Shown: positions 2,057-10,568 of the stretch, in pieces
Position numbering within the stretch: position 1 is the first letter of the stretch
Layout: every line of letters begins with the position of its first letter
Source of the DNA: an uncultured Chryseolinea sp.
Lineage (GTDB): Bacteria > Bacteroidota > Bacteroidia > Cytophagales > Cyclobacteriaceae
Assembly (NCBI GenBank): GCA_946478915.1
Contig: CAMLER010000081.1
Coordinates: forward strand, 1 to 12,079
Reading direction: 5' to 3'
Length of the DNA stretch: 12,079 nucleotides
The notes under the pieces: model-generated
What the model was told of the DNA's origin: nothing
What the model saw: only the letters and a program-made list of their open reading frames with translations
Database searches by the model: none
Translations under genes and position numbers: made by a program

Positions 2057-3073
2057 ATGCACACGGGAAAGCACTACACATTACGGGAAGTATTGTACTG
2101 GACCCGTCGAGACATCTACTTTCTTTTAGTCCTGGGAACGATCCCGACAGTGCTTTACGAGGTATTTGATATCCGTCTGACTATTCCCTGGTTACCCATC
2201 GCGTTGATCGGAACAGCTGTTGCTTTTATTGTCGGCTTCAAAAACAACGCAACCTATGGACGTCTTTGGGAAGCCAGGCAAATCTGGGGATCCATTATCA
2301 ACTCAAGTCGCTCATGGGGGATATTGGTGCGAGATTTTATTACAATCAAAAATACGGGCGATACCTTTTCGCATGACGACCTTGCGCAAATTCACAAGAG
2401 GCTTATTTATCGACATATTGGTTGGCTTACTGCTTTGCGTTTCCAACTCCGTGAACCGCGCCCTTGGGAAAATCTGACAAAAAGTTATAATGCCGAATAC
2501 CGCAGTCATTACAGTATACCAGAATTGGAGGAACAATTGAACGTCGAACTGGCCAAATATTTTTCGGAAAATGATTTCGACTATATACTAGGAAAAAAAA
2601 ACCGCGCGACACACGTCATTGCGTTGCAGTCAGCTGACTTACGAATGCTTGCCGAAAAAGGATTGATAGACAACTTTCGTCATGTCGAAATGGAAAATAT
2701 GCTCGTCAATCTTTATGAACAACAGGGTAAATGCGAACGAATCAAGAACTTCCCATATCCCCGTCAGTTTGCTACCCTGAACCTGTATTTCGTTTGCCTT
2801 TTTACACTACTCGTTCCTTTTGGGATGTTACAGGAGTTCGACAAACTTGGTGAGCATTTTATCTGGTTGACGATCCCTTTCACGGTCTTGGTCTGCTGGG
2901 TATTTCTCACGATGGACAAAATCGGAGAAGTAACTGAAAATCCCTTTGAAGGAAGTCCAAATGATGTACCAATGGCTGCCCTGAGCAGAACAATAGAAAT
3001 TGACCTACGGGAACTGCTTGATGAAAAAGACCTACCCCCACCGGTCAGCGCTGTAAACAACATTCTGATGTGA
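2057..3073 (+). CDS. Bestrophin-family (UPF0187/YneE-like) anion channel
   Basis: A 338-residue membrane protein of the bestrophin family, whose members form pentameric anion (chloride) channels, although some bacterial homologues prefer cations. Hydrophobic segments are at about 19-36, 44-62, 236-256 and 265-283, the four-helix pattern of the family. The signature after the second helix, FKNNATYGRLWEARQIWG (61-78), matches the bacterial F-R/K-N-x-x-A/T-Y-x-R-x-W-E-A/G-R-x-x-W-G motif. After the last helix, the acidic stretch ENPFEGSPNDVPM corresponds to the conserved D/E-N-P-F-x-x-x-x-x-D segment. The region between helices 2 and 3 is long, polar and cytoplasmic. The start is 6 bases after the antiporter stop and lacks a Shine-Dalgarno sequence, so translation may be coupled. 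Ion selectivity is unproven. Confidence 0.87.
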   Translation: MHTGKHYTLREVLYWTRRDIYFLLVLGTIPTVLYEVFDIRLTIPWLPIALIGTAVAFIVGFKNNATYGRLWEARQIWGSIINSSRSWGILVRDFITIKNTGDTFSHDDLAQIHKRLIYRHIGWLTALRFQLREPRPWENLTKSYNAEYRSHYSIPELEEQLNVELAKYFSENDFDYILGKKNRATHVIALQSADLRMLAEKGLIDNFRHVEMENMLVNLYEQQGKCERIKNFPYPRQFATLNLYFVCLFTLLVPFGMLQEFDKLGEHFIWLTIPFTVLVCWVFLTMDKIGEVTENPFEGSPNDVPMAALSRTIEIDLRELLDEKDLPPPVSAVNNILM

Positions 3074-3179
3074 GATTTCAAGGTTAACACATGAAACGTC
3101 CCCACATTCTTTGAATTTTTCAATTTGCCACTTTTTCAATCCTACAATCTTCTAATTTTGCAATCTTCATGAAAATTAA
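3074..3179 (+). promoter_or_regulatory. Spacer with degenerate T-rich repeats and a candidate -7 box
   Basis: This spacer contains several imperfect copies of a short T-rich unit of the type TTTTTCAAT / ATTTTGCAATC between about 3115 and 3166. TAATTTTG at 3153-3160 fits the Bacteroidetes -7 consensus TAnnTTTG exactly and would start transcription about 15 bases before the ATG at 3180. No -33 TTTG at a good distance is present: the nearest, 3124-3127, is about 25 bases away. The -7 match may therefore be chance in AT-rich DNA. No rho-independent terminator is visible after the bestrophin gene. Confidence 0.3.
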
Positions 3180-4481
3180 ATGAGACAAAGACTACTCAAA
3201 GCCGGCGCTAAGGAACTCAGTTATGAGATACGCGAAAACGTAAAAAAGGCTGATCAGCTAAAGAAGCTGGGGCTGGCAATCTCGTGGGAAAACATCGGCG
3301 ACCCGATCCAAAAACATCATTTACTTCCACAATGGATCAAGGATATTGTATCGGACCTGGCAAAAGAGGATGATACGTATAGTTATTGTCCTTCGAAGGG
3401 GATGCTGGAGACACGAGAATTCCTGGCGAAGCAAACCAACGAGATGGGTGGAGCACAAATCACTGCCGATGATATCTGTTTTTTTAACGGACTCGGTGAC
3501 GCCATCTCAAAAGTCTATCAGTTCATTTCCCGAACCTCGCGTGTGATCGGACCATCGCCAGCATATTCGACACATTCCAGCGCGGAAGCTGCCCATGCTG
3601 CACATGAACCGTTGACCTATATGCTGGACCCAAATAACAAATGGTATCCGGACCTGGACGACCTTTATAACAAAGTAAAATACAATCCAAACATCGTTGG
3701 CATTCTTATCATCAACCCGGACAATCCAACGGGTATGGTATATCCATTGGAAACTTTGAAGCGTATCGTAGAGATTGCAAAAGAGTTCAACCTTTTCCTT
3801 GTAGCTGATGAGATCTATATCAACATCACCTACAACGGCGCACGCGCGTATGCCCTATCCGAGATAATCGACGACGTACCCGGAATCTCCATGAAAGGCA
3901 TTTCGAAAGAATTGCCGTGGCCCGGCGCAAGGTGTGGCTGGATGGAATACTATAACCGGGATAAGGATTCAGATTTCAACCGCTTTTGCAACGCACTGGA
4001 TAATGCAAAGATGATTGAAGTGTGCTCAACTAAATTGCCGCAGGTGGCCATCCCCAAAATACTCGGCGATCCAAGGTTTAAAGCATATCGGGAGGAAACC
4101 AACAATAATATCGGCCGCCGAAGCAAAATAATTGCAGACATTTTTCATACCGTCCCGGAGCTCACGTTTAATGAAACTTTCGGGGCTTTTTATAATACCA
4201 TTATTTTCCGGGATGGAACATTAAAAAAACACCAGAACATGGCTATCAAAGATCCGAAGATCAAAAGCCTGGTTGAAAAGTGGGTCAAAGACGAAATTCC
4301 GCTTGACAAAAGATTCGTGTACTACCTATTGGCAGCAAAGGGCATTTGCGTGGTGCCGATCTCTTCGTTTTGTTCGGAACTTCAAGGCTTCCGTGTTACG
4401 TTGTTAGAAGAAAATGAAGATGTTCTCACAAAAACGTTTACGGCTATCCGCGACGGGATTGTTGAATATCTCCACAGTTAG
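3180..4481 (+). CDS. PLP-dependent class I/II aminotransferase, specificity unknown
   Basis: A 433-residue fold-type I aminotransferase, probably cytosolic. Visible hallmarks are NPDNPTG at 179-185 (PLP-ring contact Asn), VADEIY at 208-213 (Asp to the pyridine nitrogen and the Tyr), the Schiff-base lysine K243 in ISKELPWPGARCGW with the phosphate-binding Arg R251, and R405 in GFRVTLL at the position that binds the substrate alpha-carboxylate. The length is a little above the roughly 400 residues usual for the subfamily, with a longer N-terminus. ATG 3180 is the first start, right after an AT-rich leader without a Shine-Dalgarno sequence. The family includes enzymes for aspartate, alanine, aromatic and other amino acids, and sequence alone does not settle which applies here. 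It lies upstream of the ilv locus but is separated from it by 330 bases with its own leader, so a role in branched-chain metabolism is only a possibility. Confidence 0.88.
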   Translation: MRQRLLKAGAKELSYEIRENVKKADQLKKLGLAISWENIGDPIQKHHLLPQWIKDIVSDLAKEDDTYSYCPSKGMLETREFLAKQTNEMGGAQITADDICFFNGLGDAISKVYQFISRTSRVIGPSPAYSTHSSAEAAHAAHEPLTYMLDPNNKWYPDLDDLYNKVKYNPNIVGILIINPDNPTGMVYPLETLKRIVEIAKEFNLFLVADEIYINITYNGARAYALSEIIDDVPGISMKGISKELPWPGARCGWMEYYNRDKDSDFNRFCNALDNAKMIEVCSTKLPQVAIPKILGDPRFKAYREETNNNIGRRSKIIADIFHTVPELTFNETFGAFYNTIIFRDGTLKKHQNMAIKDPKIKSLVEKWVKDEIPLDKRFVYYLLAAKGICVVPISSFCSELQGFRVTLLEENEDVLTKTFTAIRDGIVEYLHS

Positions 4482-4498
4482 CATTGTCAGCTGCTAAC
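4477..4498 (+). terminator. Weak hairpin at the aminotransferase stop codon
   Basis: GTTAGCA at 4477-4483 and TGCTAAC at 4492-4498 form a 7-bp stem around an 8-base loop and span the TAG stop. It is followed by mixed bases with only short T-rich patches and no clean T-run, so it is at best a poor terminator. It may be chance. Confidence 0.25.
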
Positions 4499-4564
4499 AA
4501 GCGTTCTTCTACCTAACATTTGTTATCGGCAACAGTGAAATATTTCTGCAAAATACCTTGAATT

Positions 4565-4605
4565 ATAGTCTATAATTTGTGACAATTGTACTCGCACGGA
4601 ACATT
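4565..4605 (+). promoter_or_regulatory. ilvE: Candidate ilv operon promoter -7 region and leader 5' end
   Basis: TATAATTTG at 4571-4579 resembles both the sigma-70 TATAAT box and the Bacteroidetes TAnnTTTG element, with one extra base in the spacer. A start about 7 bases downstream would give a 5' leader of roughly 20 bases before the small ORF at 4606. I see no convincing -33 TTTG at standard spacing. The assignment rests mainly on position, directly upstream of the leader ORF. Confidence 0.35.
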
Positions 4606-4725
4606 ATGCTGAATTCGACCAAATTATCAGAATACAGATCAATTTCATCTACGATGGTAGATTTGATATCCGTGCTTCTCATTGTCGTGATTATTCTTAA
4701 ACCCGCAGGGGCGATGGTGATATAA
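4606..4725 (+). CDS. Putative ilv operon leader peptide
   Basis: A 39-codon ORF, ATG 4606 to TAA 4723-4725. Its codons 20-31 (4663-4698) read L-I-S-V-L-L-I-V-V-I-I-L, so 11 of 12 encode branched-chain amino acids (4 Leu, 4 Ile, 3 Val). It ends KPAGAMVI. In layout it resembles the enterobacterial ilv leader peptide, which also has a run of Ile/Val/Leu followed by a Pro-x-Gly-Ala tail. A second in-frame ATG at 4654 would give a 23-residue version beginning MVDLIS that keeps all control codons. The ORF lies between the candidate promoter and a strong terminator in front of ilvE, and encodes no recognisable protein domain. The probable role is as a sensor: ribosomes stall when Leu-, Ile- or Val-tRNA is scarce. 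The peptide itself need have no function. A small hydrophobic membrane peptide is the alternative, but position and codon content favour a leader. Confidence 0.8.
   Translation: MLNSTKLSEYRSISSTMVDLISVLLIVVIILKPAGAMVI
4647..4662 (+). promoter_or_regulatory. Small hairpin inside the leader ORF
   Basis: ATCTAC at 4647-4652 and GTAGAT at 4657-4662 form a perfect 6-bp stem with the loop GATG. The loop contains the alternative in-frame start codon ATG 4654. It sits immediately before the control codons. It might pause RNA polymerase or mask the second start, but a 6-bp stem can also arise by chance. Confidence 0.35.
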
Positions 4726-4756
4726 TATTTTGAAAGAAACATTCACAAACCGCCCC
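4708..4756 (+). promoter_or_regulatory. Candidate antiterminator pairing of the ilv attenuator
   Basis: GGGGCG at 4708-4713, inside codons 35-36 of the leader ORF, is the exact reverse complement of CGCCCC at 4751-4756, which is the core of the terminator's 5' arm. The two structures are mutually exclusive. A ribosome stalled in the control codons (4663-4692) leaves 4708-4713 free to pair and so prevents the terminator. A ribosome reaching the stop at 4723 would cover 4708-4713 and let the terminator form. The uninterrupted core is only 6 bp, but every pair is G-C. Confidence 0.55.
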
Positions 4757-4783
4757 GATAGCCTCGGGGCGGTTTTGTTTTAT
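4747..4783 (+). terminator. Intrinsic terminator (attenuator) before ilvE
   Basis: AAACCGCCCCGA at 4747-4758 pairs without mismatch with TCGGGGCGGTTT at 4764-4775 around the loop TAGCC, giving a 12-bp stem. The run continues as TGTTTTAT, so the 3' side is T-rich. It is a strong rho-independent terminator. It lies 21 bases after the leader ORF stop and about 30 bases before the ilvE start, and it does not follow a full-length gene. This position marks it as a conditional attenuator of the ilv operon rather than an end-of-gene terminator. Confidence 0.88.
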
Positions 4784-4811
4784 AAGGGCAAAACAAACTA
4801 ACAATTGTTAT

Positions 4812-5699
4812 ATGTACTACACGAAAGACACAATCATTTTCCTGAACGGGCGGTTCAGCAAAGCGGTTGATGCTCATTCAGATTTTTACAGTCAAACTCT
4901 TCATTATGGAATGGGTGTGTTTGAAGGTATACGCGCTTATCAGACCATGAATGGCGTTAAGATATTCAAAGCTTTCGAACACTTTGAACGCTTGAAGAAA
5001 GGTTGTGCGCTGGTTGGAATTCCGTATCAATATGACAGCGAAGAACTCATCCAAATTGCCTATCTCCTTTTACAAAAAAATAATTTGTCGGATGCATACA
5101 TCCGTCCGCTGATTTACTGCGGACCTAATATGGCGCTGACACAACCGACTGAAGTAAGCCTGTTGATGTGTGCATGGGAATGGGACAAGTATCACGGAGA
5201 CAAAATGCTTAAGCTTTGTATTTCGTCTTACCAACGTCCGAATCCGAATTCAGTGAAGATAGAAGCAAAGGTAACAGGCAACTATGTGAATTCGATACTC
5301 GCCACGAGCGAAGCCAAAGCCAGAGGTTATGACGAAGCACTGATGCTCGACATGGAAGGGAACATAGCACAAGCACCGGGTTCAAACTTTTTCATGGAAA
5401 AAGATGGTGTCCTTTACACGCCGCCTCTCGGACATATTCTTCCCGGTACAACTCGCGAAATTGTGATGAGTATTTGTCATGAGTTGGACATTCCAGTGAA
5501 GGAACAAAAAATCAGTCCAACGGAATTGGAAGAAGCCGACAGTGCTTTTCTATGCGGCACTGCGGCAGAGATCGCTGCCATTGAATCGATAGATGCAAAG
5601 CCATTCAAGAAAGATTGGTTCGACAGTTATGGCGCGAGCATTCAGGAAACTTATAAATGTCAGGTAAGGGAAAAATCTTTTAGTTACGTAATTATTTAG
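4812..5699 (+). CDS. ilvE: Branched-chain amino acid aminotransferase
   Basis: A 295-residue fold-type IV PLP enzyme that transaminates the 2-oxo acids of valine, isoleucine and leucine with glutamate. It is the last step of the pathway and acts in the cytosol. Motifs in order: [14 protein letters not shown] (30-43), R60 in the FER segment near the phosphate site, the Schiff-base lysine K153 in [11 protein letters not shown], the family signature [20 protein letters not shown] in the second half, then [15 protein letters not shown]. The length is close to that of E. coli IlvE (about 309), with a slightly shorter C-terminus. ATG 4812 directly precedes the conserved start of the fold; there is no Shine-Dalgarno sequence. 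It is the first structural gene behind the attenuator, and ilvD starts 16 bases after its stop. A D-amino-acid or aminodeoxychorismate-lyase function within class IV is unlikely given the operon. Confidence 0.95.
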
Positions 5700-5715: not shown

Positions 5716-7395
5716 ATGGAATTTAATAAGTATAGCAAGACCGTCACACAAGATCCAACGTTACCAGCAGCTCAGGCAATGTTATATGCCATTGGGTTGA
5801 CCGAAAAAGATTTGGAAAAAGCACAGATAGGGATCGTGAGCACAGGCTTTGATGGCAATCCCTGTAACATGCATTTGAATACACTTGCGCAAACCGTTAA
5901 AGGAGGCGTATGGGAAAATGATCTCGTCGGTTTGATCTTTAATACTATCGGCGTAAGCGATGGTATCAGCAATGGAACTGAGGGAATGCGTTACTCTTTG
6001 GTAAGCCGGGAGATCATCGCGGATTCTATCGAAGCAGTTTGTGGCGCACAATATTATGACGGGCTGATCGCAGTCGTTGGTTGCGACAAGAATATGCCTG
6101 GTGCACTGATCGCGATGGGAAGACTCAACCGACCTTCGATCATGGTGTACGGTGGAACGATTGCAGGCGGTAACTGGAAAGGACACCAACTTAACATAAT
6201 TTCTGCGTTTGAAGCGCTGGGCCAAAAAATGGCGGGCACTATCACGCCGGAAGATTTTAAAGGTATCGTTCAAAACTCTTGTCCCGGTGCCGGAGCCTGC
6301 GGTGGGATGTATACAGCAAACACCATGTCGTCGGCTATTGAAGCACTAGGCATGTCGTTACCTTATTCATCTTCCAATCCTGCGTTAAGTCAGGAGAAAG
6401 CTGAAGAATGCAAAGCGGCGGGCAAAGCGATCAAATTCCTTCTTGAAAAAGACTTGAAGCCCCGCGACATCATGACGCGAAAAGCATTTGAGAATGCGAT
6501 TTCAACGGTCATGGTACTGGGCGGTTCCACGAATGCTGTGCTTCATCTTATTGCAATGGCTAAATCGGTCGGCGTTAAGTTGACCCAGGAGGATTTTCAG
6601 CAGATCTCCGACAAAACACCGTTGCTTGCTGACTTGAAACCCAGCGGCAAATACCTGATGGAAGACCTTCACAAGATCGGCGGAGTGCCTGCAGTTCTTA
6701 AGTATATGCTGAAGAGAGGTTATCTCCACGGCGATTGTATCACGGTGACGGGCAAAACCATCGAAGAAAATTTGAAGGATGTGCCTGAGTTGGAGTTTGA
6801 AAATCAGAAAGTGATTTTTCCTGTTGAAAAACCGATCAAGCAAACAGGACACCTCCAGATCATGTTCGGAAACCTCGCTGCTGAAGGATCGGTAGCAAAG
6901 ATCACTGGCAAGGAAGGTGAAATATTTAAGGGCACAGCCCGGGTTTTTAACGGGGAGTTTGAACTTGTCGATGGAATAAAAGATGGAAAAGTAAAGGCCG
7001 GCGACGTTGTCGTGATCCGGAATGTAGGACCAAAAGGAGCGCCGGGGATGCCCGAGATGCTGAAACCTACCTCAGCTATCATGGGCGTGGGCCTTGGAAA
7101 AAGTGTCGCTTTGATCACCGACGGAAGATTCTCCGGGGGATCACATGGATTCGTGATCGGTCATATCACCCCTGAAGCTTATGAAGGTGGATTGATCGGT
7201 TTGGTCGAAGACGATGATATCATAGAAATAGATGTTCAGAACCATACGATCAACCTTATGGTTGATGAAGCAACTATTGCAAAACGTAGGGAAGCCTGGG
7301 TTGCGCCCAAGCTAAGAGCTAGAAATGGAATTTTGTTAAAGTATGCAAAACAAGTAAAAACTGCTGCCGATGGATGCGTTACTGACGAAGACTAA
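5716..7395 (+). CDS. ilvD: Dihydroxy-acid dehydratase
   Basis: A 559-residue IlvD/Edd-family enzyme that dehydrates 2,3-dihydroxy-isovalerate and 2,3-dihydroxy-3-methylvalerate to the 2-oxo acids, the step before transamination. The three expected Fe-S cluster cysteines are visible: C50 in [10 protein letters not shown]123 in [10 protein letters not shown] and C195 in [16 protein letters not shown]124, next to C123, is the position of the Mg2+-binding carbamylated lysine. The C-terminal signature [18 protein letters not shown] is intact. The length matches [2Fe-2S]-type bacterial enzymes of about 555-560 residues, shorter than E. coli-type [4Fe-4S] enzymes (about 616). It is cytosolic. The last 26 bases overlap the start of ilvB in another frame. 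The related sugar-acid dehydratases are excluded by context. Confidence 0.97.
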
Positions 7396-9133
7396 GACTG
7401 CAACTGAATCTGCCAAGGCGGAGCAGTCGACAAAAAAAATATCCGGATCAGAAATTCTGCTCCGATGCCTGGTGGAAGAACAGGTTGACAAAATATTTGG
7501 TTATCCGGGCGGCGCAATCATGCCAATATATGATGCGTTGTTCCATTATGCTGACCGACTCAACCATATACTCGTACGCCATGAGCAGGGAGCGATCCAC
7601 GCAGCACAGGGTTTTGCCCGGGTAACGGGAAGGCCAGGCGTCGTATTTGCAACGTCGGGACCTGGAGCGACCAACCTCGTGACGGGGCTCGCAGATGCAT
7701 TGATAGATTCGACACCGTTGGTTTGTATAACGGGACAGGTATTTGCGCATCTGTTGGGTACGGATGCTTTCCAGGAAACAGATGTGATCAATACAACGAT
7801 TCCCGTAACGAAGTGGAATATCCAGGTAACTGAAGCAAAGGACATTGCTCCTGCCGTCGCGAAAGCATTCTATATCGCGCGTACCGGTCGCCCGGGTCCG
7901 GTTCTGGTTGACATCACGAAGAATGCGCAGAATGAAATTATCGATGCACCGCAGTACACGAAGTGCGAAAGCATCCGCACGTACAAGCCAAAACCAGTAT
8001 TGCAAAATGACCAGGTAGAAGCAGCGGCTAAAATGATCAACGCGGCCAAACGACCGTACATCCTGGCGGGTCAGGGAATTTTATTATCCGATGCAACAAA
8101 AGAGCTTGTGGCTTTTGCCGAAAAGACAGGAATTCCGGTAGCCTGTACGTTGCTCGGCCTGGGCGCTATTCCAGCCGACCATCCAAACTATGTAGGTTTC
8201 CTGGGAATGCATGGAAATTATGGTCCCAATATCAATACGAATGAATGCGATCTGCTCATTGCAATTGGGATGCGATTTGACGATCGGGTGACAGGAAACG
8301 TCAACAAGTATGCGAAACAGGCAAAAGTAGTTCACATAGAAATCGACAAAGCGGAGATCCACAAGATCATCAAGGCCGATGTGGCAGTTCATGCCGACGC
8401 TAAGGAGGCTTTACAGTCTTTGATAAAAAAATGCAATAAGAACAATCATGCGGAATGGATTGAGTCTTTTACAAAACTCAATGCTATAGAATACGAAAAA
8501 GTGACGAAGGATGAATTCAATCCTCCTGGTATACTGACGATGGGAGAAGTGATCAATCACCTTTCTATTGCAACCAACGGTGAAGCTATTGTGGTTACCG
8601 ACGTGGGTCAGCACCAGATGACCACTTCTCGTTATTATAAATACAAAGAACCGAGGACCAACGTTACCTCTGGCGGTGCCGGTACAATGGGATTTGCTTT
8701 GCCCGCAGCCCTGGGTGCCAAACTGGGTATTCCTGAAAAGGAAGTCGTCGCGGTTATAGGCGACGGCGGCTATCAGATGACGGTGCAGGAATTAGGAACG
8801 ATTATGCAATACAAGATTCCGGTAAAGATACTTGTGTTGAATAATAACTTCCTGGGAATGGTTCGCCAGTGGCAGCAACTCTTTCATGAGAAGCGATATT
8901 CTTTCACCGAAATGGCAAACCCTGACTTCGTAAAGCTTGCTGAAGCTTACAATATCCCAGCCCGAAAGGTTGAAAAGAGAGAAGATCTTCAATCTGCTAT
9001 CCAGGAAATGCTTGATGCAAAAACTCCGTATTTCCTTGAAGCAGTCGTCGGCAAAGAGGACTGTGTATTTCCGATGGTACCTGCCGGGGCAGGAGTCGCC
9101 GAAGTTCTATTGGAAGTGCCAAAGAAAAAATAA
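7370..9133 (+). CDS. ilvB: Acetolactate (acetohydroxyacid) synthase large subunit
   Basis: A 587-residue ThDP-dependent catalytic subunit that condenses pyruvate with a second pyruvate or with 2-oxobutanoate, the first common step. The ThDP-activating glutamate is E72 in [16 protein letters not shown]. The FAD and middle domain spans about 200-380, with GMHGNYGPN near 279. The ThDP/Mg2+ motif runs from GDGGYQM (464-470) to NNN (491-493), followed by [15 protein letters not shown] 7370 is the only plausible start: conserved homology begins around residue 24 ([16 protein letters not shown]), so the first 20-odd polar residues are a short extra tail. The start lies inside the ilvD end (26-base overlap), which points to translational coupling. 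It needs its small subunit, encoded next, for full activity. Confidence 0.97.
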
Positions 9134-9162: not shown

Positions 9163-9456
9163 ATGAAACAGAATTTCACACTTCAGATTACGGCAGACAA
9201 CAACTTCTCAATTCTCAACAGAATTGTGAATGTATTGAACCGTAGAAGAGTTCGAATAAAAAAGCTGATCGCTCATGAAAATGAAGAAGATTTCATGAAA
9301 GGCGACGCAATCTTGTTGGTTTACACAACGTCTGACCTGATGGAAAAGGTAAAACACCAACTGGAGAAGCTTATCGAAGTAGAGCAAGCTGAATACTTCG
9401 CAGGTAGCGACGTGTATTTTGAATTGAGCAACCGTTCGAACAAGAAGGTGGCGTAG
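9163..9456 (+). CDS. ilvN: Acetolactate synthase small subunit, short single-ACT form
   Basis: A 97-residue ACT-domain protein, identified by its place between ilvB and ilvC and by the pattern FTLQITADNNFSILNRIVNVL...RIKKLIA...LEKLIEVEQAEYF, which aligns with the N-terminal ACT domain of IlvH/IlvN. The C-terminal domain of the usual 160-180-residue subunits is absent. Only 41 bases separate it from ilvC, so this is not a frameshift artefact. By length it resembles E. coli IlvN or IlvM. Aligned with E. coli IlvH, the valine-pocket positions Gly14 and Asn29 become Ser and Arg, while Asn11 is kept. Its regulatory response to valine may therefore be weak or absent; this is inference. It starts 29 bases after ilvB. 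Confidence 0.9.
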   Translation: MKQNFTLQITADNNFSILNRIVNVLNRRRVRIKKLIAHENEEDFMKGDAILLVYTTSDLMEKVKHQLEKLIEVEQAEYFAGSDVYFELSNRSNKKVA

Positions 9457-9497: not shown

Positions 9498-10568
9498 ATG
9501 GCAAAGATCAATTTTGGAGGCACTATAGAAGAAGTGGTTACCCGCGAAGAATTCCCGATGGAAAAGGCGCTCGACATTTTAAAGAACGAGACCATTGCCA
9601 TCATCGGATACGGCGTACAAGGACCAGCGCAAGGATTAAACCTCCGCGACAATGGTTTCAAAGTAATTGTCGGCCAGCGCAAGAACTCCAAAACATGGGA
9701 CAAAGCCGTTGACCATGGATGGGTTCCCGGCGAAACGTTGTTCGATATTGAAGAAGCTGCAAAGCGTGGAACTATCCTGCAGTTCCTGCTTTCTGACGCT
9801 GGTCAGATCGCATTGTGGCCTACCATCAAGCCATATCTGACAAAAGGAAAGACACTTTACTTCTCTCACGGTTTCGGTATAACATTTAAAGAACAAACGG
9901 GTATCATCCCTCCTGCCGATGTCGATGTGATCCTGGCTGCGCCTAAAGGATCCGGTACTTCAGTAAGAAGATTATTCTTGCAAGGAAAAGGTATCAACTC
10001 AAGCTACGCCGTGTTCCAGGATGCCAGCGGAAATGCAAAGGAAAAAGCGATCGCGCTTGGGATTGGATTGGGTTCCGGATATTTGTTCGAAACAGATTTC
10101 AAGAAAGAAGTATATTCTGATTTAACCGGCGAACGCGGAACCCTGATGGGTGCCATAGCAGGAATCTTCGAAGCACAGTACGAAGTACTCCGCGCTAATG
10201 GACATTCGCCATCAGAAGCCTTTAACGAAACTGTCGAAGAGCTTACTCAAAGTCTGATGCCGCTTGTAGCTGAAAATGGAATGGACTGGATGTATGCTAA
10301 CTGTTCGACTACTGCTCAACGAGGTGCGCTTGACTGGAAAAAGAAATTCAAAGCAGCGACACTTCCTGTTTTCCAGGAACTCTATAAAAGTGTAGCATCG
10401 GGTCAGGAAGCAAAACGTACCATCGAAACTTGCAGCAAGCCCGACTATCGCGAAAAACTTGCGGAAGAATTAAAAGAAGTTCGTGAAAGCGAACTGTGGC
10501 AGGCAGGAGCCGCTGTGCGCAAGCTGAGACCTGAGAAGGCTACGGTAGAGGCAAGCATGATCAACTAA
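9498..10568 (+). CDS. ilvC: Ketol-acid reductoisomerase (class I type)
   Basis: A 356-residue enzyme that isomerises and reduces acetolactate or acetohydroxybutyrate to the 2,3-dihydroxy acids, with Mg2+ and NAD(P)H, in the cytosol. The N-terminal Rossmann domain carries GYGVQGPAQG (37-46) and the cofactor loop GQRKNSKTWDKA (59-70), where K62 and S64 could bind the 2'-phosphate of NADPH. SHGFG (123-127) and APKGSG (148-153) supply the catalytic His and Lys. The helical domain has one knotted copy with metal ligands D208, E212, E244 and E248, the single-repeat class I arrangement, and not the duplicated class II form of E. coli (about 490 residues). It is slightly longer than typical class I enzymes. 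The 41-base gap from ilvN is A-rich and lacks a Shine-Dalgarno sequence. It is the last gene of the compact cluster before a repeat-rich spacer. Confidence 0.96.
   Translation: MAKINFGGTIEEVVTREEFPMEKALDILKNETIAIIGYGVQGPAQGLNLRDNGFKVIVGQRKNSKTWDKAVDHGWVPGETLFDIEEAAKRGTILQFLLSDAGQIALWPTIKPYLTKGKTLYFSHGFGITFKEQTGIIPPADVDVILAAPKGSGTSVRRLFLQGKGINSSYAVFQDASGNAKEKAIALGIGLGSGYLFETDFKKEVYSDLTGERGTLMGAIAGIFEAQYEVLRANGHSPSEAFNETVEELTQSLMPLVAENGMDWMYANCSTTAQRGALDWKKKFKAATLPVFQELYKSVASGQEAKRTIETCSKPDYREKLAEELKEVRESELWQAGAAVRKLRPEKATVEASMIN

Follow-up and report, generated by a model that had tools for sequence, protein, structure and literature searches.

The 330-nt intergenic region between a PRK06855-type aminotransferase gene and the ilvE ATG at 4812 raises the question of how the branched-chain amino acid genes behind it are controlled. 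The window (the whole stretch of DNA that was analysed, 12,079 nt) had been read, from its letters, as carrying a ribosome-mediated attenuator following the logic of the enterobacterial ilv leaders. In the ilv, leu, trp and his leaders of Enterobacteria, a short ORF rich in cognate codons is combined with an intrinsic terminator and an exclusive antiterminator. From the conservation of the locus, a codon-position test and an antiterminator that the sequence-only reading did not describe, we consider it very probable that the locus is a transcription attenuator of the leader-peptide type, sensing Leu, Ile and Val. The genes concerned are as follows.

3180-4481, PRK06855-type aminotransferase gene, upstream neighbour of the leader region
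4812..5699, plus strand, ilvE, branched-chain aminotransferase, the first gene under the proposed control (NCBIfam PRK06606 and TIGR01122, both above cut-off)
5716-7395, plus strand, ilvD (NCBIfam)
7370-9133, plus strand, large acetolactate synthase subunit, in the place of ilvB in the order ilvE-D-B-N-C (NCBIfam)
9163-9456, plus strand, short ORF of 97 residues in the ilvN position (gene order)
9498-10568, plus strand, ilvC (NCBIfam)

An ilvA gene, also named by NCBIfam, extends beyond the window edge. No NCBIfam model matched the 97-residue ORF in the ilvN position, and the gene order, with this ORF in its place, is kept in those relatives whose sequence is long enough to show it. The closest match to IlvE, the best of 15 ilvE-encoding loci, comes from a Chryseolinea metagenome bin (Cytophagales, Fulvivirgaceae) and is 85% identical over the whole protein. 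Two of the 15 loci (Chloroflexi, SAR202; 25% identity) were dropped, and the remaining 13 close relatives were compared together with the window and 7 distant loci, 21 ilvE loci in all. The distant loci encode IlvE proteins that are 57-68% identical to that of the window and retain a leader with a Leu/Ile/Val run.

Leader peptide, terminator and antiterminator

The elements of the proposed attenuator lie in the following order upstream of ilvE.

4606..4725, plus strand, leader peptide ORF of 39 codons and TAA, MLNSTKLSEYRSISSTMVDLISVLLIVVIILKPAGAMVI, found in all 21 ilvE loci
4663..4698, plus strand, control codons, L I S V L L I V V I I L, 11 of 12 being Leu/Ile/Val (codon-position test)
4679..4687, plus strand, possible protector strand (UCAUUGUCG) inside the control codons, pairing with 4712-4720 (89.4% of cells paired)
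4708..4720, plus strand, antiterminator strand 2 (GGGGCG 4708-4713, GUGA 4717-4720), within the last leader codons, pairing with strand 3
4743..4756, plus strand, antiterminator strand 3 (UCAC 4743-4746, CGCCCC 4751-4756), overlapping the terminator 5' arm
4747..4775, plus strand, intrinsic terminator hairpin of 12 pairs (8 G-C), with the last stem G at 4772 and a T tract from 4773 (TTTTGTTTTA) that is interrupted at its fifth base

The small ORF with its branched-chain codons at 4663-4698 proved to be real, since 11 Leu/Ile/Val codons out of 12 were matched by no small ORF in 3000 dinucleotide shuffles of the intergenic region, where the maximum of 10 out of 12 was reached in 5 shuffles. The scan for terminator-like sites found one, against 0.4 expected from shuffles, and the fold of the leader RNA beats that of its shuffles (z -3.5; 1 of 200 shuffles as good). 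The 12-bp hairpin, directly followed by TGTTTTATAA, was thus correctly recognised beforehand, with the correction that 36 nt, instead of about 30, separate its end from the ilvE ATG. Terminator, leader ORF and Leu/Ile/Val run occur together in 21/21 ilvE loci, which is the conservation among relatives that was to be expected of an attenuator of this kind, and the leader stop codon lies 23-30 nt before the terminator core in every one of them.

Strands 2 and 3 could form an antiterminator duplex in all 21 loci, with p<=0.05 against shuffles in 19 of them (the exceptions being L027 at 0.073 and L030 at 0.087). In an alignment of 14 sequences 98.5% of the cells are paired, a value that falls to 31-52% on shifting the partner by 1-3 columns. 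Covariation carries little information here because the core of the duplex is nearly invariant, the observed pairing being reached by 59 of 500 shuffles; in one locus (L028) an altered terminator stem is matched by an altered strand 2. Folding of partial transcripts gave the antiterminator when the RNA was free from 4699 to 4758, and the terminator when it was free from 4739 onwards. At the level of sequence, antiterminator and terminator are shown to be mutually exclusive and conserved.

The helix formed by the possible protector strand is weaker. Its covariation score was reached by 2 of 500 shuffles and its other measures by 32 to 470 of 500, and it loses to the antiterminator in the partial-transcript fold, so that the terminator might not form without translation; repression in the absence of translation is, on this model, doubtful.

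Leaders of the same layout in the order and class

With a covariance model built on the 3' half of the leader, one strong match each (E<=1.4e-19; next best 0.0018) was obtained in 7/7 genomes of close relatives searched, and a match at E<=0.01 in 31 of 291 genomes of the order. The 29 new loci taken from the latter search comprise 7 upstream of ilvE, with E<=1.4e-4, and 22 in which no ilv protein of the window is seen within 3 kb. A second match in one genome (G242) lies before leuC.

A further search with the window IlvD covered 33 genomes from the order, 20 of which gave a match, and 40 from the class, of which 13 did; the two draws overlap. The 29 loci with an IlvD at least 58% identical were used for an upstream scan. 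Small ORFs linked to a terminator and having Leu, Ile or Val in 6 or more of 8 codons were found upstream of ilvD in 10/29 loci, as compared to 0/29 on the other strand and 1/29 in a downstream stretch. Two of the ten (L095 and L096) are the clade's own form, L127 was dropped as doubtful, and L123 (5/8 Leu/Ile/Val) was added by inspection. The resulting eight other-lineage leaders, from the order and the class, have unrelated sequences and different terminators and the same layout, with the stop codon 18-27 nt before the terminator. Their antiterminators gave p values of 0.002-0.016 with the segment extended to the terminator, a wider segment chosen once it was known that a first test, on a segment ending 4 nt after the stop codon, had given 0.16-0.84 in 6/8.

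In L101 and L106 the Leu/Ile/Val leader and the terminator are placed directly before ilvD and not ilvE, the attenuator there preceding the ilv gene that happens to be the first. L115 (G026:C3:91013-92677) is a second ilvD-like gene, with 65% identity to that of the window and one TGA inside the matched frame.

A palindrome downstream of the terminator, at ilvE and at leuC

Two related palindromes, here called D and U, flank the leader.

4513..4524, strand not assigned, U palindrome CTAACATTTGTT, putative operator upstream of the promoter region, related to D
4796..4809, strand not assigned, D palindrome AACTAACAATTGTT, putative operator in the stretch from the terminator to ilvE, with 23 nt separating it from the stem

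In the ilvE loci, 23 nt (4 loci) or 24 nt (17 loci) separate the end of the stem from D. D anchored these 21 loci, and its presence there is not an independent observation; the spacing at ilvE, the leuC loci and the order-wide results are independent of this anchor, beyond its requirement for a terminator within 60 nt. Upstream of leuC in 16 further loci (L136-L151), a terminator-like hairpin is followed 24-25 nt later by the looser form of the palindrome, AACTAACRNTTGTT. The leuC assignment rests on NCBIfam for one member, to which the other 15 are 82-97% identical. D is present without mismatch in 16/16 of these loci and a hairpin was scored before it in 12/16. The spacing is 24 nt in 12 and 25 nt in 3, with 1 unscored, and it moves with the call of the stem end (21 or 25 in L136; unscored or 24 in L140). 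The distance from D to the leuC start is variable, from 0 to more than 50 nt. Thus, the spacing from stem to putative operator is fixed across the unrelated leaders of ilvE and leuC; the 37 module loci all come from one clade, and the counts are not independent events. In L091 and L092 (genomes G151 and G338) ilvE and leuC lie side by side in divergent orientation, both having their own terminator and D palindrome, and in the same two genomes the leuC hairpin seemingly stands almost at the presumed transcript start.

A purine at the fifth base of the T tract, at a fixed offset, is found in 32/37 modules as compared to 1/11 other terminators, and four of the five non-purine modules are the rows with 23-nt spacing, shifted by one. 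A run of six T occurs in 0/37 modules and in 4/11 of the other terminators, a small control set.

Searches for D outside these loci were also carried out. The stricter pattern AACTAACRRTTGTT occurs 19 times in 13 genomes, namely 8 times before ilvE, 9 before leuC and twice elsewhere, as compared to 5 times for the reversed control pattern; one of the two sites elsewhere lies upstream of a relative of the aminotransferase gene at 3180-4481. For the looser AACTAACRNTTGTT, 16 genomes gave 31 sites, as compared to 16 sites for its reversed control: 11 before ilvE (all 11 checked), 16 before leuC, one at the upstream ilvE position, one at the aminotransferase gene and 2 others. Given 5 and 16 sites for the reversed controls, single D-like sites elsewhere mean little. 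The pattern GTTT-N5..35-D gave 66 rows in 45 of 390 genomes, of which 12 have a length that corresponds to 24 nt (lengths counted by hand). All 12 stand upstream of ilvE or leuC, in the ten genomes with a match to a second covariance model (R2, which includes D); the other 35 genomes contribute 40 rows, not one of them of that length. As R2 matches at E<=0.001 in only 10/390 genomes, the exact form is confined to one clade.

The motif of U, CTAACNNTYGTT, is present 87-113 nt before the leader ATG in 21/21 ilvE loci. Because U lies upstream of the presumed transcription start, the palindrome probably acts in DNA, as a putative operator. Within 4490-4524 of the window a degenerate second copy (CTAACAAGCGTTC) is seen about 20 bp upstream of U, and this copy is a good match in L001 (TAACAACTGTTA) and in L012, which suggests tandem operator sites. 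AAC-N4-GTT palindromes are also found 83-92 nt before the PRK06855-type aminotransferase gene in 5/12 relatives (L153-L156 and L158), and inspection by eye of 3040-3200 of the window found none; this gene may belong to the same regulon.

What could a palindrome at this place do? In nine leuC loci scanned for ATG ORFs with more than 30% Leu/Ile/Val, no dense run was found just before the terminator, and the few Leu/Ile/Val-rich ORFs lie at least 200 nt upstream. The same terminator-operator layout thus occurs at leuC with no Leu/Ile/Val leader found, and the terminator may therefore have a further controller. At its release point, 7-9 nt after the stem, RNA polymerase has a footprint whose front edge would reach D. 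We tentatively propose, as one possibility suggested by this layout, that the ilv and leu operons of the clade share a module of terminator stem, interrupted T tract, 23-25 nt and the putative operator AACTAACRNTTGTT, in which a weak terminator might be made strong by a bound regulator that holds RNA polymerase at the release point; ilvE would then have two sensors, tRNA charging and a DNA-bound regulator. Repressor roadblocks are known inside transcribed leaders, and the operator-like palindrome within the transcribed region resembles them, but the palindrome of this clade differs in keeping 23-25 nt from the terminator stem in two operons. Among the literature matches listed, as far as their text extends, no description of an operator at a fixed distance from a terminator stem was found.

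The common spacing at ilvE and leuC, the leuC loci with terminator and D and no Leu/Ile/Val leader found, and the interrupted T tract would also agree with a stronger alternative, namely that a regulator at D (and U) controls the terminator by roadblock or looping and that the leader peptide is secondary. This alternative leaves the codon run, the exchange among Ile, Leu and Val and the antiterminator without explanation, and 7/8 other-lineage leaders lack an AAC-N4-GTT at up to 120 nt from the terminator start, so that we regard it as improbable. In the remaining leader, L103, AACTATTGTT follows the stem at 27 nt, a distance that the inner palindrome of the window also shows. The operator reading does not replace the attenuator, which stands without D in other lineages.

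Proposed signal and leader translation, and known attenuators

In the attenuator proper, evidence on the signal comes from the ten codons before a Lys-Pro pair in 14 aligned sequences. Codon positions 1, 2 and 3 show 0.603, 0.153 and 0.625 pairwise differences per site, respectively, and every sequence has Ile, Leu or Val in 7-10 of the 10 codons. The residues that differ are both Ile, Leu or Val in 440 cases and not so in 143. Second positions that are held while the three residues exchange freely are as predicted for a sensor of charged Leu-, Ile- and Val-tRNA. A conserved short peptide before a biosynthetic operon could also point to sensing of the peptide itself or of a free amino acid, by an arrest peptide or a riboswitch, rather than of tRNA charging. 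A specific arrest peptide would not tolerate differences of which 440/583 are exchanges within Ile/Leu/Val, and no Rfam family reached its curated cut-off in the window, which together make this highly unlikely. Rfam likewise gave no match at cut-off in 11 loci with leuC-type or divergent elements, and the sub-threshold matches (rnk_pseudo, 30.7 bits against a cut-off of 55; Phe_leader, 19.3 against 55; and others) were set aside as generic terminator-like matches. That the hairpin, placed between the gene ending at 4481 and ilvE, marks the end of the aminotransferase gene and the ORF arose by chance is very improbable, given a codon run unmatched in the shuffles and an order of elements before ilvE that persists in L005, with this gene at a distance of about 4.7 kb, and in L002 and L004, with no such gene found in the upstream 6 kb.

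The ribosome-mediated attenuation proposed beforehand is thus supported by the conservation in 21/21 loci, the codon-position test and the antiterminator, and it would plausibly operate as follows. RNA polymerase would start near 4595, and a ribosome would load on the leader ORF almost at the 5' end of the RNA. Strand 2 would lie under a ribosome that has reached the stop codon and would be left exposed by one that is still early in the run. With charged Leu-, Ile- and Val-tRNA plentiful, the ribosome would reach the stop codon at 4723-4725 and cover strand 2 (4708-4720), the terminator at 4747-4775 would form, and transcription would end before ilvE. With one of the charged tRNAs scarce, the ribosome would stall in the run at 4663-4698 and leave strand 2 free to pair with strand 3 (4743-4756), so that no terminator would form and the ilv genes would be transcribed.

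The expected start depends on two further elements.

4558..4588, plus strand, putative promoter TTG-N25-TTG (-33 and -7 like elements), with a start expected near 4595
4594..4600, plus strand, 5' arm of helix P1 (GCACGGA), pairing with 4669-4675 (TCCGTGC; 89.8% of cells paired in 14 sequences)

TTG-N25-TTG is present before the leader in 20/21 ilvE loci, L030 being the exception; among the other TTG-TTG spacings from 15 to 35, a spacing of 16 occurs in 10 loci and every other one in at most 2. The window element GACAATTG fits poorly to the -7 consensus TAnnTTTG, as given in the consulted part of a published study (PMC9723704). From the promoter-like element we infer that transcription starts some 10-18 nt ahead of the leader AUG. 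With the AUG so close to the 5' end, the leader ribosome would more readily load in time, and this may answer the loading puzzle posed by Bacteroidota ribosomes, which, in the excerpts of two reports, fail to recognise Shine-Dalgarno sequences (PMC6847099, PMC9976891). Helix P1 reached p<=0.05 in 10/14 close loci and in 0/7 (22-nt segment) or 1/7 (16-nt segment) distant loci; it was rejected as a general feature, being supported in the close clade only. A role in pausing or in limiting initiation was considered as a possibility.

The leader shares with the enterobacterial ilv, leu, trp and his attenuators the ORF rich in cognate codons, the terminator, the exclusive antiterminator, the cognate operon and the end of the leader over an antiterminator strand. 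It differs from them in having no Rfam match at threshold and no sequence match, in the Bacteroidota type of translation start without a Shine-Dalgarno sequence, in a probable 5' leader of only 10-18 nt, in the weak protector helix, and in the D and U palindromes.

Leader peptides, according to part of the text of PMC2965389, were known only in Proteobacteria and Actinobacteria before a survey of 2010 added the Firmicutes. The map of Bacteroides thetaiotaomicron mentions, in the portion consulted, long 5' UTRs with small ORFs that resemble leaders of this kind (PMC7366714), and a 2021 study of Flavobacterium psychrophilum contains passages with strong clues for leader-peptide attenuation before amino-acid operons (PMC9723704). 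The latter agrees with our locus in phylum, kind of mechanism and amino-acid biosynthesis, and differs in that its passages name pheA and hisG, not ilv, among the structured 5' elements and concern a flavobacterium instead of a member of the Cytophagales. Leader-peptide attenuation as a kind is thus not new for Bacteroidota, having already been suggested for a flavobacterium; no description of an ilv leader in Cytophagales was found in the open-access literature, among the matches listed. The variant feature of the clade's attenuator is the terminator-operator module that it shares with leuC.

The loci compared here provide comparative evidence, from several unrelated sequences, for a working leader-peptide attenuator of the classical type in Bacteroidota, despite the reported failure, in the excerpts cited above, to recognise Shine-Dalgarno sequences, and they make transcription-translation coupling in this phylum testable at a defined site. 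The terminator-operator spacing common to ilvE and leuC points to a possible route by which a DNA-binding protein could set the strength of an intrinsic terminator; if the operator reading were true, intrinsic termination would be gated by a protein and ilvE would have a second layer of control.

The expectation that gene finders will miss the leader ORF stood only in part. Three relatives, 38-48 residues in length, are already among the predicted proteins of metagenomes, one being named 'hypothetical protein'.
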